48,332 bases of DNA, from assembly GCA_025359845.1 (NCBI GenBank), contig JANYDT010000110.1, positions 1-48,332 of the forward strand, given 5' to 3'. This DNA comes from Acidimicrobiia bacterium (GTDB taxonomy: Bacteria > Actinomycetota > Acidimicrobiia > Acidimicrobiales > JANYDT01). Each line of letters opens with the position of its first letter. Position 1 is the first letter of the stretch. Below, one piece after another: positions 39,887-45,909 of this stretch. Below the pieces are notes generated by a model. The model saw nothing but the letters and a program-made list of their open reading frames with translations. It was not told where the DNA came from and ran no database searches. The position numbers were made by a program, and so were the translations under genes.

Positions 39887-41062
39887 ATGACAACTACGAG
39901 TGTTGTCCACCTCAAGAGGGACATTGAAACTCTCGAGCTCGGCCTTGACGGCCCCCAGTTGTGCCAAGCAATCCAATGTCTCGATCGGCTCACGGCCAAG
40001 ATAACCAACGCGGTCGCCGACTTCGACGCCTCCGGTGGCTACGGCATCGATAACGCCCCTAACATGGTGTCATGGCTCAATAGGCACGCGGCTATGGGTC
40101 CAAAAACGGCGCGAGCGATGTGCCGCCAAGGCGTCCTGTTGCGGTACCTGCCCGCCACCTGCCAAGCGTGGCTCACCGGCGGGTTGTCCCACAGCCAGAT
40201 CCAGGCCATCGTGGCCAACCTCACGAACGACACCGTGAAACTCTTCGTCGTCGACGAAGCCGTCGTGGTGCCGCTGCTCGTTGGCGCCACGGTGCGCGAA
40301 ACCGCCCAGTTCATGACCAAATGGGTGGCCACCATCGACGCCGTCACCGACGGACCCGAACCACCTGAGCCGGCCCAGAATGTCTGTGTCAACCAGACGT
40401 TCAACGGCCGCTGGCATATCACCGGCACGCTCAACACCGCAGCTGGTGCCCTCGTCGAAAAAGCGTTGCTGCTGGCCCGGCCCGCCGATCCGACCCTGGC
40501 ACGCGGTGCCGCCAACGCCGCCGCCCTCAACGAGATCCTCAACTTCTACCTCACCCACCAGACCACCGCAGTAGGTGGACGGCACCGACCCCACGTGAAC
40601 GTCACCATCGACCTCGCGCAACTCGAAGGCCGCGGGCAAGGACAGCTGCTCGACTCCACACCCCTCAATCCCCAGACGATGCGGCGCATCCTGTGCGACT
40701 GCAACATCCACCGCGTCATCACCAGAGGCGCCTCCAGCATCGTCGACTTTGGGCGGTCGACCCGCACCATCTCGCCCGCCCTGTTCACGGCCCTCGTCCT
40801 ACGAGACCAACATTGCCGCTTCCCCGGCTGCGAACGAGGACCTGAATACTGTGATGCGCACCATGCCGTGCCCTGGGAAAAGGGCGGACCGACCAACCCC
40901 GCCAACACCATCCTGCTGTGCCACTACGACCATCACCACCACGGTCATGGCACCGGATGGCACATGCGAATGGACCCCGACGGCACCCTCTACATTACCA
41001 ACCCTGACGGACGCCAATTCACCACCTACCCGCCGGATGCAAAGCCCATTCTTCCTGTGTGA
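39887..41062 (+). CDS. DUF222/HNH endonuclease (13E12 repeat-type)
   Basis: The 391-residue protein consists of the helical DUF222 region (VADFDASGGYGIDNAPNMVS; MGPKTARAMCRQGVLLRYLP; LTNDTVKLFVVDEAVVVPLL) followed by an HNH nuclease from about residue 303: LVLRDQHCRFPGCERGPEYC, DAHHAVPWEKGGPTNPANTI and LLCHYDHHHHGHGTGW, with paired Cys for zinc and the H-H...N...H catalytic set. These are abundant, often repeated genes in actinobacteria, related to mycobacterial 13E12 family proteins and thought to be mobile or selfish-like nucleases. Its leader is AT-rich and its codon use looks similar to neighbours. The selenoprotein candidate begins 73 bases after its stop on the same strand. Confidence 0.92.
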   Translation: MTTTSVVHLKRDIETLELGLDGPQLCQAIQCLDRLTAKITNAVADFDASGGYGIDNAPNMVSWLNRHAAMGPKTARAMCRQGVLLRYLPATCQAWLTGGLSHSQIQAIVANLTNDTVKLFVVDEAVVVPLLVGATVRETAQFMTKWVATIDAVTDGPEPPEPAQNVCVNQTFNGRWHITGTLNTAAGALVEKALLLARPADPTLARGAANAAALNEILNFYLTHQTTAVGGRHRPHVNVTIDLAQLEGRGQGQLLDSTPLNPQTMRRILCDCNIHRVITRGASSIVDFGRSTRTISPALFTALVLRDQHCRFPGCERGPEYCDAHHAVPWEKGGPTNPANTILLCHYDHHHHGHGTGWHMRMDPDGTLYITNPDGRQFTTYPPDAKPILPV

Positions 41063-41135
41063 CGCCACCTCGAATATCGCATTTCGGCCAACTCGCAAAG
41101 AACGTGGTCACGGGCTGGGTACAGTTCCGTTCGTG

Positions 41136-42596
41136 ATGCTTTCGCAACGATCGCTCGGGTGGCTGCGCTACCTCGACCGGAAGGTCCGAACGCCCGACAA
41201 CTGGGATCGCGACGGTCGACCGCATCCGCACTGGGATGACCGGTCCGATCCCCCGATGGCGAGCTGGCATCGCTTCGATCTCGTCGACTCGTCCTACGCG
41301 ATGGGCCTCATGGCGCACCGCACGCCGGCCTGGACCGAGCGCTACATCGCAATCCTCGATCAGCTCATCGAGCGCCATACGCGCTGGTGGTCGGCCGCCG
41401 ACTGGTTGACCCAGTTCGGTCACGATCCCGATCAGGCCCGCTACCCCGATGAGTACCGACCCTTCATCCCCCGAGACTTGTGGGGCAGCTATGACGTGCC
41501 GGGCTGGACGGCGAACGGCATCGAGCCGTGGGGTGTGCAGATCGATCCGATCGCCGCCGACGGCATGCTCTTCTACAAGGGGTTCTTCCTCGTCCTGCTC
41601 GGGATCCGGTCGATGATCGACCCTGAAGACCGGTGGAACCGCCAGTTCGAGATGGTCCGTGACGGCGGCCACTCGTTCACCTGGACACATTCGGAGATCG
41701 CCGCGCACCTGTGTCGGCAGTGGAGCGCCGCGCCGATCGGGTGCCATTGCGAGAACACCAAGATCTGGCCGTTCTGAATGGCCGGAGCCGGCCTCGGTCT
41801 GAGGCTGCACGACAACCGGCACGGGAGCGACTTCCACGAGCAGGCGTTCCGGCCGTGGTGGGCGTACGCCAGGGAGCACTATCTCGATCTGGGCGGTAGT
41901 TCCGCGCCGAGCACGACGACCTTCTACTACGACCCGCAAATCGACGTGCACCATCGGCTACCAGTGCGCGCCGCCCTGACGACCGCCTTCTACGCCGCGC
42001 CCCAGGTGCCCGGGGATTCGCGACGCCTGTTCGACGCGGCCTGCGCCTCGGCCGGGCTGGACGCGGCACCCAAGCTGCCGCTTCCCGCGGGCCGTGGCGT
42101 CGCATCGTCACTGGTGCTCGCCCGTGAATGGGGGCTCGCCGAGCTCGAGCAGCGTCTTGTCGCGGCGATCGAGGCCTCCTATGAGCCGAGCTGGGATGCC
42201 GGCCGCGGCGAGTTCACCTGGGGCATGGGCTTGAACGAGGCGCACCCGAGGGGTCAGTTCAACGCGTTCCTCGCGGCCGCTGAGGCCGCCGGCCCGGGAA
42301 TGTGGTCGCGGCTCTCGGCGGAACCGGTCGGAGTCTGCCCCCAGGTTGTGGGCGTCGACTTCCCGACGCTGGCCCTGAGCCGCGCCGAATGGGTGAACGG
42401 CAGCCTCCATCTGCGTCTCGCTCCCCTACGCGAAGACCCGAACACGTTCAGCACCTTTCGCATCGTGGGGGCAGAGCCGCGTCAGTGGGACCTATCCGGT
42501 GTCAACGGGGTGACCATGGACGTCACCGCGCGTGCAGTAATAGTGAGGGTCCCGCTAGTCAGCGGCGACCTCGAGTTCTCGCCCGGGAGCTACTAG
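41136..42596 (+). CDS. Linalool dehydratase/isomerase-like protein with in-frame UGA (candidate selenoprotein)
   Basis: One frame runs from ATG 41136 (GTG 41133 adjacent) to TAG 42594-42596, 486 residues, interrupted only by TGA at 41775-41777 (codon 214). Upstream are SLGWLRYLDRKVRTPDNWDR, DGMLFYKGFFLVLLGIRSMI and GCHCENTKIWPF; downstream, with no loss of frame, AGAGLGLRLHDNRHGSDFHE, AFRPWWAYAREHYLDL and RGVASSLVLAREWGLAELEQ. These match linalool dehydratase/isomerase (LDI), whose active site uses CEPDNYFVQC (Cys171 and Cys180). Here Cys205 is the first cysteine and codon 214 is exactly nine residues later, the second. A SECIS-like hairpin follows. With UGA as Sec the product is a C/U LDI-like (alpha,alpha)6-barrel enzyme, perhaps acting on a terpenoid or other alcohol. 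Where LDI has the YKGHL His (His129) this protein has YKGFF. If UGA is a true stop, the gene is split or re-initiates at the ATG directly after it. Confidence 0.75.
41775..41807 (+). promoter_or_regulatory. UGA codon and SECIS-like hairpin
   Basis: TGA is at 41775-41777. After exactly 18 bases comes the loop GGTCT (41796-41800), closed by GCCTC (41791-41795) and GAGGC (41801-41805); G-T and C-G pairs extend the stem to 41789/41807 (7 bp in all). The E. coli fdhF SECIS, as I recall it, also has 18 bases between UGA and GGUCU in its apical loop. The bulged U of the fdhF stem is not evident here. A second possible fold, GGCCGG-AG-CCGGCC (41780-41793), would compete. Confidence 0.6.
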
Positions 42597-44854: not shown

Positions 44855-45235
44855 ATGCTGGTCACCCGCATCTACACCGGTGGCGACGAACGATCCCACT
44901 TCGAAGATCTCGATCTGCCGCTGAACGTCACGGACCTCGGCGCCATGTCCGGGCCGATACTTGTGGAATCCATCTTCGTGCGCGATACCTCCGAGGCCGG
45001 CCCCGACGTGTACGACTTCCACGTCGCGCCACGGCGCCAGCTCGTCATCCATGTGCGGGGCCGAACCGAGATCGAAGTCGGCGTCGGGGAGAAGCGAACC
45101 TTCGGACCGGGCGACCTCCTCCTCGCCGACGACCTCACCGGTCAGGGCCACATCAGCCGCCAAACCGAAGGGCCCCGCCTGCAGGTGTTCGCCGTACTGA
45201 GCGGCGCTGTCGACCTCGAACTCTGGCGAACCTGA
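44855..45235 (+). CDS. Cupin-domain protein
   Basis: The 126-residue protein has TRIYTGGDERSHFEDLDLPL, VYDFHVAPRRQLVIHVRGRT and EIEVGVGEKRTFGPGDLLLA, then DDLTGQGHISRQ. This is a single cupin barrel with the first motif HVAPRRQLVIHVRG and the second GPGDLLLADDLTGQGH. The ligand His in QGH is present, the first motif partly degenerate. It is probably a small-molecule or metal-binding enzyme linked in function to the VOC protein four bases upstream. No substrate can be named. Confidence 0.85.
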   Translation: MLVTRIYTGGDERSHFEDLDLPLNVTDLGAMSGPILVESIFVRDTSEAGPDVYDFHVAPRRQLVIHVRGRTEIEVGVGEKRTFGPGDLLLADDLTGQGHISRQTEGPRLQVFAVLSGAVDLELWRT

Positions 45236-45369
45236 CCGACCGGTCCTGCAACGTCCATGACCGGACCCAGCGGCGGCCAGGACTCAGAGTGTCATCGATG
45301 AGGCGCGTTAGAGCCTCACCGCCGCAACGAGACCGTTATTGCGCGCGAGGGGCGGGTAACCTCGCGGCC

Positions 45370-45909
45370 ATGCGCACCCTCTTAGCGCCCGACGACATGG
45401 TCGACGACATGCTTGCCGAGCGTCGCGCCCGCGGTTGGGATTTGTATGACTACGAGATAGACGGGGTGTACCACATGGCGCCGGCACCGAGCGTCGACCA
45501 TGCCGATATCCAACTGCGAGTCGGCGCCGTGATGCTCGAGCTCGCCCGCGACAAAGGATTGAAGGCGATCGGTCCAGCCAACTTGGGCAAGCTCAAAGGT
45601 GACGTGATTGCATACCTGATTCCCGATGTCACGGTCGTAGAACCGGGCGCCTCGGGCTCGGCTCTGCTCCACGCGTCGGTGGCGGTAGAGATCCTTTCGC
45701 CGAACGAAGACGAAGACGCGAAGGTCGCCGACTACGCCAGGGTCGTCGAACTGACCGGACTGCAACTCGACGAGCTTTGGTACGTCGACGCGACCAACGC
45801 CCAGGTCAGAATCCGTGATGCTCGTCTGCGGCTCGTCGATCACAGCACCGTCTTTGGCCGGGCCGCGGCCGAACTCGCCGAGTTGTTCGGCCTCCGCCCT
45901 TCACTCTGA
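45370..45909 (+). CDS. Uma2-family (DUF820) putative restriction endonuclease-like protein
   Basis: The 179-residue protein starts at ATG 45370 and shows the Uma2 pattern: RRARGWDLYDYEIDGVYHMA, SVDHADIQLRVGAVMLELAR, YLIPDVTVVEPG with the catalytic P-D, and VAVEILSPNEDEDAKVADY, the E-x-x-S-P motif that completes a PD-(D/E)XK site. The last part, LTGLQLDELWYVDATNAQVR, fits. Many bacteria carry several copies, yet function is unknown; nuclease activity is assumed from the fold. An N-terminal fragment of the same family occurs at 35853-36026. It is a single gene between the cupin gene and the alcohol dehydrogenase. Confidence 0.85.
   Translation: MRTLLAPDDMVDDMLAERRARGWDLYDYEIDGVYHMAPAPSVDHADIQLRVGAVMLELARDKGLKAIGPANLGKLKGDVIAYLIPDVTVVEPGASGSALLHASVAVEILSPNEDEDAKVADYARVVELTGLQLDELWYVDATNAQVRIRDARLRLVDHSTVFGRAAAELAELFGLRPSL

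Follow-up and report, generated by a model that had tools for sequence, protein, structure and literature searches.

The window analysed here is a stretch of 48,332 nucleotides (nt) from an Acidimicrobiia bacterium (contig JANYDT010000110.1, positions 1 to 48,332). On its forward strand lies a gene related to linalool dehydratase/isomerase (LDI), 486 codons followed by TAG (positions 41136–42596), and as the original prediction from the DNA alone had stated, its frame is broken by a single TGA, at 41775–41777 (codon 214, forward strand). The start was taken as the ATG at 41136; the GTG at 41133 is also possible. Codon 205 (TGC, Cys; 41748–41750, forward strand) and codon 214 align with Cys171 and Cys180 of LDI, respectively. 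Two hairpins, both on the forward strand, accompany these codons. The putative selenocysteine insertion sequence (SECIS) of UGA214 occupies 41790–41806, with six pairs and the loop GGUCU at 41796–41800, and a further hairpin, 3′ of codon 205, occupies 41764–41786 and holds UGA214 in its loop. We propose that the gene encodes an LDI-family selenoprotein, and that UGA214 is very probably read as selenocysteine (Sec), because the UGA is conserved among relatives, a covarying GGU-loop hairpin follows it, the Sec machinery is present in the genome, and Cys forms of the protein exist. The selenoprotein reading of the original prediction is thereby supported.

The in-frame UGA is conserved among relatives

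Six peptide patterns that all leave out codon 214 were used to scan genome contigs, and 48 loci were recovered. Adding the loci from whole-genome searches in the class and in the order gave 64 distinct loci spanning codons 203–225. Codon 214 is TGA in 58 of them (the window included), Cys in four and His in two. Chance is excluded, because TGA is found at 58 of the 64 loci though the search patterns avoid this codon. The same TGA is present in other assemblies, and purifying selection is seen downstream of it. The 58 UGA genes stem from records of Acidimicrobiia, other Actinomycetota, Chloroflexota, Myxococcota, UBP10 and Gammaproteobacteria, and the relatives are 40 to 83% identical to the window protein over the best segment.

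Whole-genome searches of the window's order detected a relative in 38 of 397 sampled genomes (E 1e-30), with a TGA inside the match in 27 of the 38, and those of the class in 9 of 395 (1e-10). A gammaproteobacterial relative was the sole TGA carrier among the 3 of 266 genomes (itself included) with a match in its sampled class. A phylum-wide search with the Cys form P0008 matched only 2 of 396 genomes, one of which was the window's.

The protein alignment has 121 rows, and Cys/Cys stands at positions 205/214 in 105 of them, the query (C written for U) included; seven rows are gapped there and nine carry other letters (Ser/His, Arg/Arg, Gly/Arg, Cys/Gln and others). Cys-form LDI-like proteins (P0006, P0008 to P0029, L073, L090, L091 and L093) show ∼40–60% identity and share the CENTK-WP motif, but unlike the UGA genes they encode Cys at both 205 and 214. 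The non-thiol forms are L072 and L089 among the loci and P0002, P0003, P0005, P0007, P0030, P0088–P0090 and P0098 among the proteins; those placed in the tree group among UGA genes. The Arg (CGA) and Gly (GGA) codons are one base from UGA. These forms may represent lineages in which Sec was lost and the activity was changed or lost.

A GGU-loop hairpin follows UGA214

A hairpin downstream of the UGA had been predicted, and it was found. The window hairpin at 41790–41806 (hairpin 2) has the stem GGCCUC/GAGGCU and a loop that begins 18 nt after UGA214. The bacterial SECIS (bSECIS) model describes a loop of 3–9 nt, a stem of 4–16 pairs, a G in the first two loop positions, a spacing of 16–37 nt and an energy of −7.5 kcal/mol or lower (PMC13188914). 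Hairpin 2 falls within it, with a five-nt loop beginning GG, six pairs, a spacing of 18 nt and −11.2 kcal/mol on 22 nt.

The six pairs around the GGU loop are kept in all 58 UGA genes, with every cell paired both in the 31 genes with Cys205 and in the 27 with UGA205. Compensatory changes from C45-G57 to U-A occur in 6 rows of the Cys205 set and 8 rows of the UGA205 set, and from C46-G56 to U-A in 2 rows. The covariation score was reached by none of 500 shuffles, and slid structures pair only 17 to 59%. The codons are constrained as well: among 33 conserved Leu/Gly positions only 220, 221 and 222 (CTC, GGT, CTG) lack synonymous variation, and codon 223 is AGG/AGA in 56 of the 58 UGA genes (AAG in 2) vs. 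none of nine non-UGA genes. A single UGA gene, L048, has the loop variant GGUAU. The nine non-UGA genes, two of them His forms, keep 3, 3, 3, 3, 4, 4, 4, 4 and 5 of the six pairs, so that the hairpin is incomplete in all; this control is small, and one member, L114, is only 31% identical and perhaps misaligned. No Rfam family matched the window at the gathering threshold, and a search of viral contigs with the SECIS pattern gave six matches, none in a query-related frame.

The window's genome encodes the selenocysteine machinery

selA, selB, selC and selD, which the original prediction had named as a check on the Sec reading, were all found in the window's genome (254 contigs, 93% complete). 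selA adjoins selB on contig 4, selD is found on contig 50, and contig 97 carries tRNA-Sec (anticodon UCA). In the selD gene (L068:1531), too, the frame contains a UGA, in GAGUACK, followed by a GGU-loop hairpin, and at least one further selenoprotein, SelD, is predicted in this genome. Both putative SECIS elements have a GGU apical loop a short way downstream of the UGA, but the SelD loop has three bases and lies 15 nt past the UGA, compared with five bases and 18 nt in the LDI-like gene.

selA (E 1e-20) was detected in 39 of the 42 searched genomes with a verified UGA214, a count that excludes the genome of L033, or in 41 of 44 when two genomes with a gene piece short of codon 214 are added. 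All three genomes searched that have other or partial LDI-like forms also had it, as did 260 of the 395 genomes of the class. A tRNA-Sec of at least 60 bits was found in 47 of 56 UGA-form genomes (the place of the TGA is unchecked in one, G623) and, with scores of 63 to 66 bits, in three of six non-UGA-form genomes, of which two have Ser/His forms and one a Cys form. In the other three, Cys-form genomes of the window's order that are 58 to 89% complete, the best tRNA-Sec scores were 46.0, 46.0 and 47.5 bits, at a gathering score of 47.

The protein is related to LDI and aligns with both of its catalytic cysteines

The joined frame matched the Pfam family Ldi (PF18566) at 1.2e-12 and 48.5 bits (cut-off 26.1). 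The original prediction held that both halves show the same family. This stood by way of relatives that span codon 214, and did not stand for each half alone: the front half scored 23.3 bits (5.5e-5), below the cut-off, and the rear half had no Pfam match at 0.001. The LDI-like protein matched no family of NCBIfam 20.0, and a phmmer search of the PDB with the single protein gave no match; only the profile of relatives did, reaching the LDI structures at 1e-9. As predicted, this profile aligned residues 205 and 214 with both cysteines of the LDI motif CEPDNYFVQC, and C171 and C180 mutants of LDI are named in PDB titles. Positions 205 and 214 are the only columns with Cys in >90% of 110 rows. 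The predicted (alpha/alpha)6 domain, the fold of LDI, runs across codon 214, and the predicted catalytic-pair atoms in the window protein are S at 205 and Se at 214.

LDI proper interconverts myrcene, linalool and geraniol. Compared with the enzyme of Castellaniella defragrans (PF18566; PDB 5i3t, 5g1u), identity over the fold is ∼18%, and the new family has UGA at one or both cysteine positions. The window protein has an extra beta-rich tail past about residue 400, and no signal sequence was seen by eye at its start; the capping disulphide Cys48-Cys101 and periplasmic export are features of LDI. According to a paper on LDI (PMC6600392), its cysteines (170 and 179 in that paper's numbering) need the reduced state and their Ala/Ser variants are inactive; their mechanism is under debate, with acid/base chemistry and a covalent thioether as the two options.

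Nearly half of the UGA genes have UGA at both catalytic positions

Beyond what the original prediction had claimed, UGA also occurs at the first catalytic cysteine. Codon 205 is TGA in 27 of the 58 UGA214 genes and Cys in 31. The two UGA codons are 27 nt, or nine residues, apart (U-x8-U), and the products of these 27 genes are predicted to have selenols in place of both catalytic thiols.

Between the two codons, the 27 double-UGA genes have hairpin 1, the counterpart of the window hairpin at 41764–41786: seven pairs and a loop of nine that starts 20 nt after UGA205 and contains UGA214. Its positions pair in 98.9% of cells in the double-UGA genes vs. 58.5% in the 31 Cys205 genes, and its five inner pairs are part of the lowest-energy 59-nt fold in 21 of 27 vs. 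3 of 31. Codon 215 is CTG in 26 of 27 double-UGA vs. 15 of 31 Cys205 genes, and codon 217 is GGA in 25 of 27 vs. 2 of 31. Hairpin 1 shows one-sided changes only, and covariation gives no proof of it.

The three Cys205 genes that still fold hairpin 1 are those of the window, L004 and L071. Both trees place them among double-UGA genes; the support is moderate, and their neighbours are not the same in the two trees. These three genes are likely reversions from Sec205 to Cys. The window's hairpin 1 is likely a relic, because codon 205 is Cys there.

UGA214 genes form two clades in the tree, with Cys forms between them. A first approximately unbiased (AU) test against a single origin of UGA214 gave p 0.0016, with P0030 (Ser/His, inside the clade) counted as an outsider. 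We do not rely on this value, because P0030 was wrongly left outside the clade; with it included the test gave p 0.087, which is compatible with a single origin.

Surroundings of the gene and its database entries

A DUF222/HNH endonuclease gene (window 39887–41062) lies immediately upstream of the selenoprotein gene. Contig 56 of the same genome holds a second match to protein residues 2–44 (L002, 6446–6574, 56% identical); it sits in a 137-codon open frame and is perhaps a fragment of a paralogue. On a plasmid of Streptomyces sp. NBC_01136 (L111:7953–9518), a Cys/Cys LDI-like gene stands beside alpha/beta hydrolases, a flavin reductase and an enoyl-CoA hydratase, and this gene run is a possible lead to the substrate. 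Database entries are broken front or rear halves with varied starts, called "hypothetical protein" if named (P0004, P0101, P0104, P0105, P0107 and many of P0124–P0238).

Discussion

A nonsense mutation or an assembly error that disrupted an otherwise normal LDI-like gene of this genome is the default explanation for an in-frame TGA, and the original prediction had named nonsense mutation as the main alternative. TGA at the same codon in 58 distinct loci of several phyla argues against it, as do purifying selection downstream and the conserved hairpin; conservation of TGA214 in effect refutes it, and we regard its probability as negligible. That UGA is apparently read through in the LDI-like gene would also fit a genome-wide reassignment of UGA to Trp, Gly or Cys with no role for selenium. 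Yet window frames 39887–41062, 44855–45235 and 45289–45909 terminate in TGA, homologues mostly have Cys at 214 and none of the 121 rows has Trp or Gly there, tRNA-Sec (UCA), selA, selB and selD are present, and a SECIS-like hairpin would be needless. On the TGA stops, the Cys at 214 and the Sec machinery, this very improbable explanation was rejected. It is equally hard to credit that UGA is a true stop between two subunits, one per half. The codon after it happens to be ATG in the window, and the halves are stored as separate database proteins (P0004 and P0101). Across the 58 genes, however, that codon is CTG in 41 and CTC/CTA in 12 (53 in all), ATG in only 4 and CAG in 1, the rear halves in the databases start at many places (176 to 277 amino acids in 119 of 120 among the matches listed), and a single (alpha/alpha)6 domain is predicted across the codon. 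The two halves do not resemble separate proteins, and this explanation was rejected on the same three grounds.

Selenocysteine is known mostly from redox enzymes. A selenoprotein in which Sec, or the Sec pair, carries out redox reactions with peroxides, disulphides or metals instead of LDI-like dehydration is possible, and on balance we think it unlikely. It would agree with a review in which most uncharacterised selenoproteins are deemed likely redox proteins (PMC13188914), with a pair nine residues apart that could form Se-Se or S-Se, and with the LDI His being mostly not retained. Against it, both positions correspond to the catalytic cysteines of LDI, which need the reduced state for activity (PMC6600392), the predicted fold is that of LDI, and the CENTK-WP motif around the site is retained in the Cys forms. 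We lean slightly towards an LDI-like reaction.

Several observations weigh against reading the gene as an LDI-like selenoprotein. Concerning function, the His of KGHLNL, which we take to be catalytic in LDI, is mostly replaced in the new family (Phe in 83 and Trp in 16 of 110 rows, mostly Asp, Ser or Asn otherwise). Across 49 stretches, 48 from the loci and one a part of the window, no conserved gene neighbourhood was found: besides the gene's own overlapping frames, only an enoyl-CoA hydratase and a 798-codon frame (5 loci each) recur in at least 5 neighbourhoods. Concerning Sec itself, some homologues have non-thiol residues at 205/214 (Ser/His, Arg/Arg, Gly/Arg and others), selA was not found in 3 of the 42 UGA214 genomes, and a tRNA-Sec of 60 bits was not found in 9 of the 56 UGA-form genomes, perhaps reflecting gaps in incomplete genomes in both cases. 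Concerning the hairpins, loop 1 begins with G in 19 of the 27 UGA205 genes and lacks it in 8, so that the fit to the bSECIS model is only partial. Hairpin 2 reaches −7.5 kcal/mol or lower on 22 nt in 46 of 58 genes and is weaker in 12, and it is the lowest-energy fold of the 48 nt from the UGA in only 39 of 58. Two coarser measures of its covariation, pairs changed on both sides and further pair types, were matched by 57 and 500 of 500 shuffles in one set and by 498 and 498 in the other.

If UGA214 encodes Sec, SelB with Sec-tRNA(UCA) would bind the hairpin at 41790–41806 and insert Sec at 214. Double-UGA genes would then yield a selenol-selenol pair nine residues apart. For UGA205 there are two options: hairpin 1 may be its own SECIS, or the folded hairpin 1 may bring the GGU hairpin near enough to serve UGA205 too. 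With tandem decoding, one ribosome passage would insert Sec, melt hairpin 1 and then at once meet the second SECIS. The enzyme would be a cytoplasmic, cofactor-free (de)hydratase/isomerase (no signal sequence was seen); its substrate would probably be an alcohol or alkene of isoprenoid type, and the selenolate would serve as base or nucleophile. The fullest form of this proposal, to which we give an even chance, is that a U-x8-U catalytic pair of two selenols performs non-redox carbon chemistry in an LDI fold and is decoded by tandem hairpins, and that several lineages, the window's included, later replaced Sec205 by Cys and kept a relic hairpin.

The selenoprotein family has likely not been described before. 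Table 1 of a 2026 inventory lists 119 prokaryotic selenoprotein families and subfamilies, among them no LDI and no PF18566 (PMC13188914), in line with the original prediction, to which no described LDI selenoprotein was known. No LDI-type selenoprotein was found in the open-licence PMC literature, and a description in print elsewhere is possible; the deep-Sep paper contains none of the terms searched for. The same Table 1 includes bacterial proteins with two Sec, namely Prx-like (UxxU), FmdB (UxxU) and the rhodanese-like TsoB (UxxxxU) (PMC13188914). They resemble the prediction made here in that one bacterial protein contains two closely spaced Sec, but have other folds and shorter spacings than U-x8-U in the LDI fold. 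A further difference is that here the hairpin following the first UGA holds the second one in its loop.

These data suggest that (i) in a hydratase-like enzyme, Sec probably stands in for the cysteines that act as acid/base (or nucleophile), and in many relatives it does so at both sites; (ii) such genes are stored in databases as broken hypothetical proteins; (iii) tandem hairpins raise the question of how SelB deals with a pair of UGA codons spaced 27 nt from each other; and (iv) natural Se/S variants of one site make the cysteine mechanism of LDI testable.
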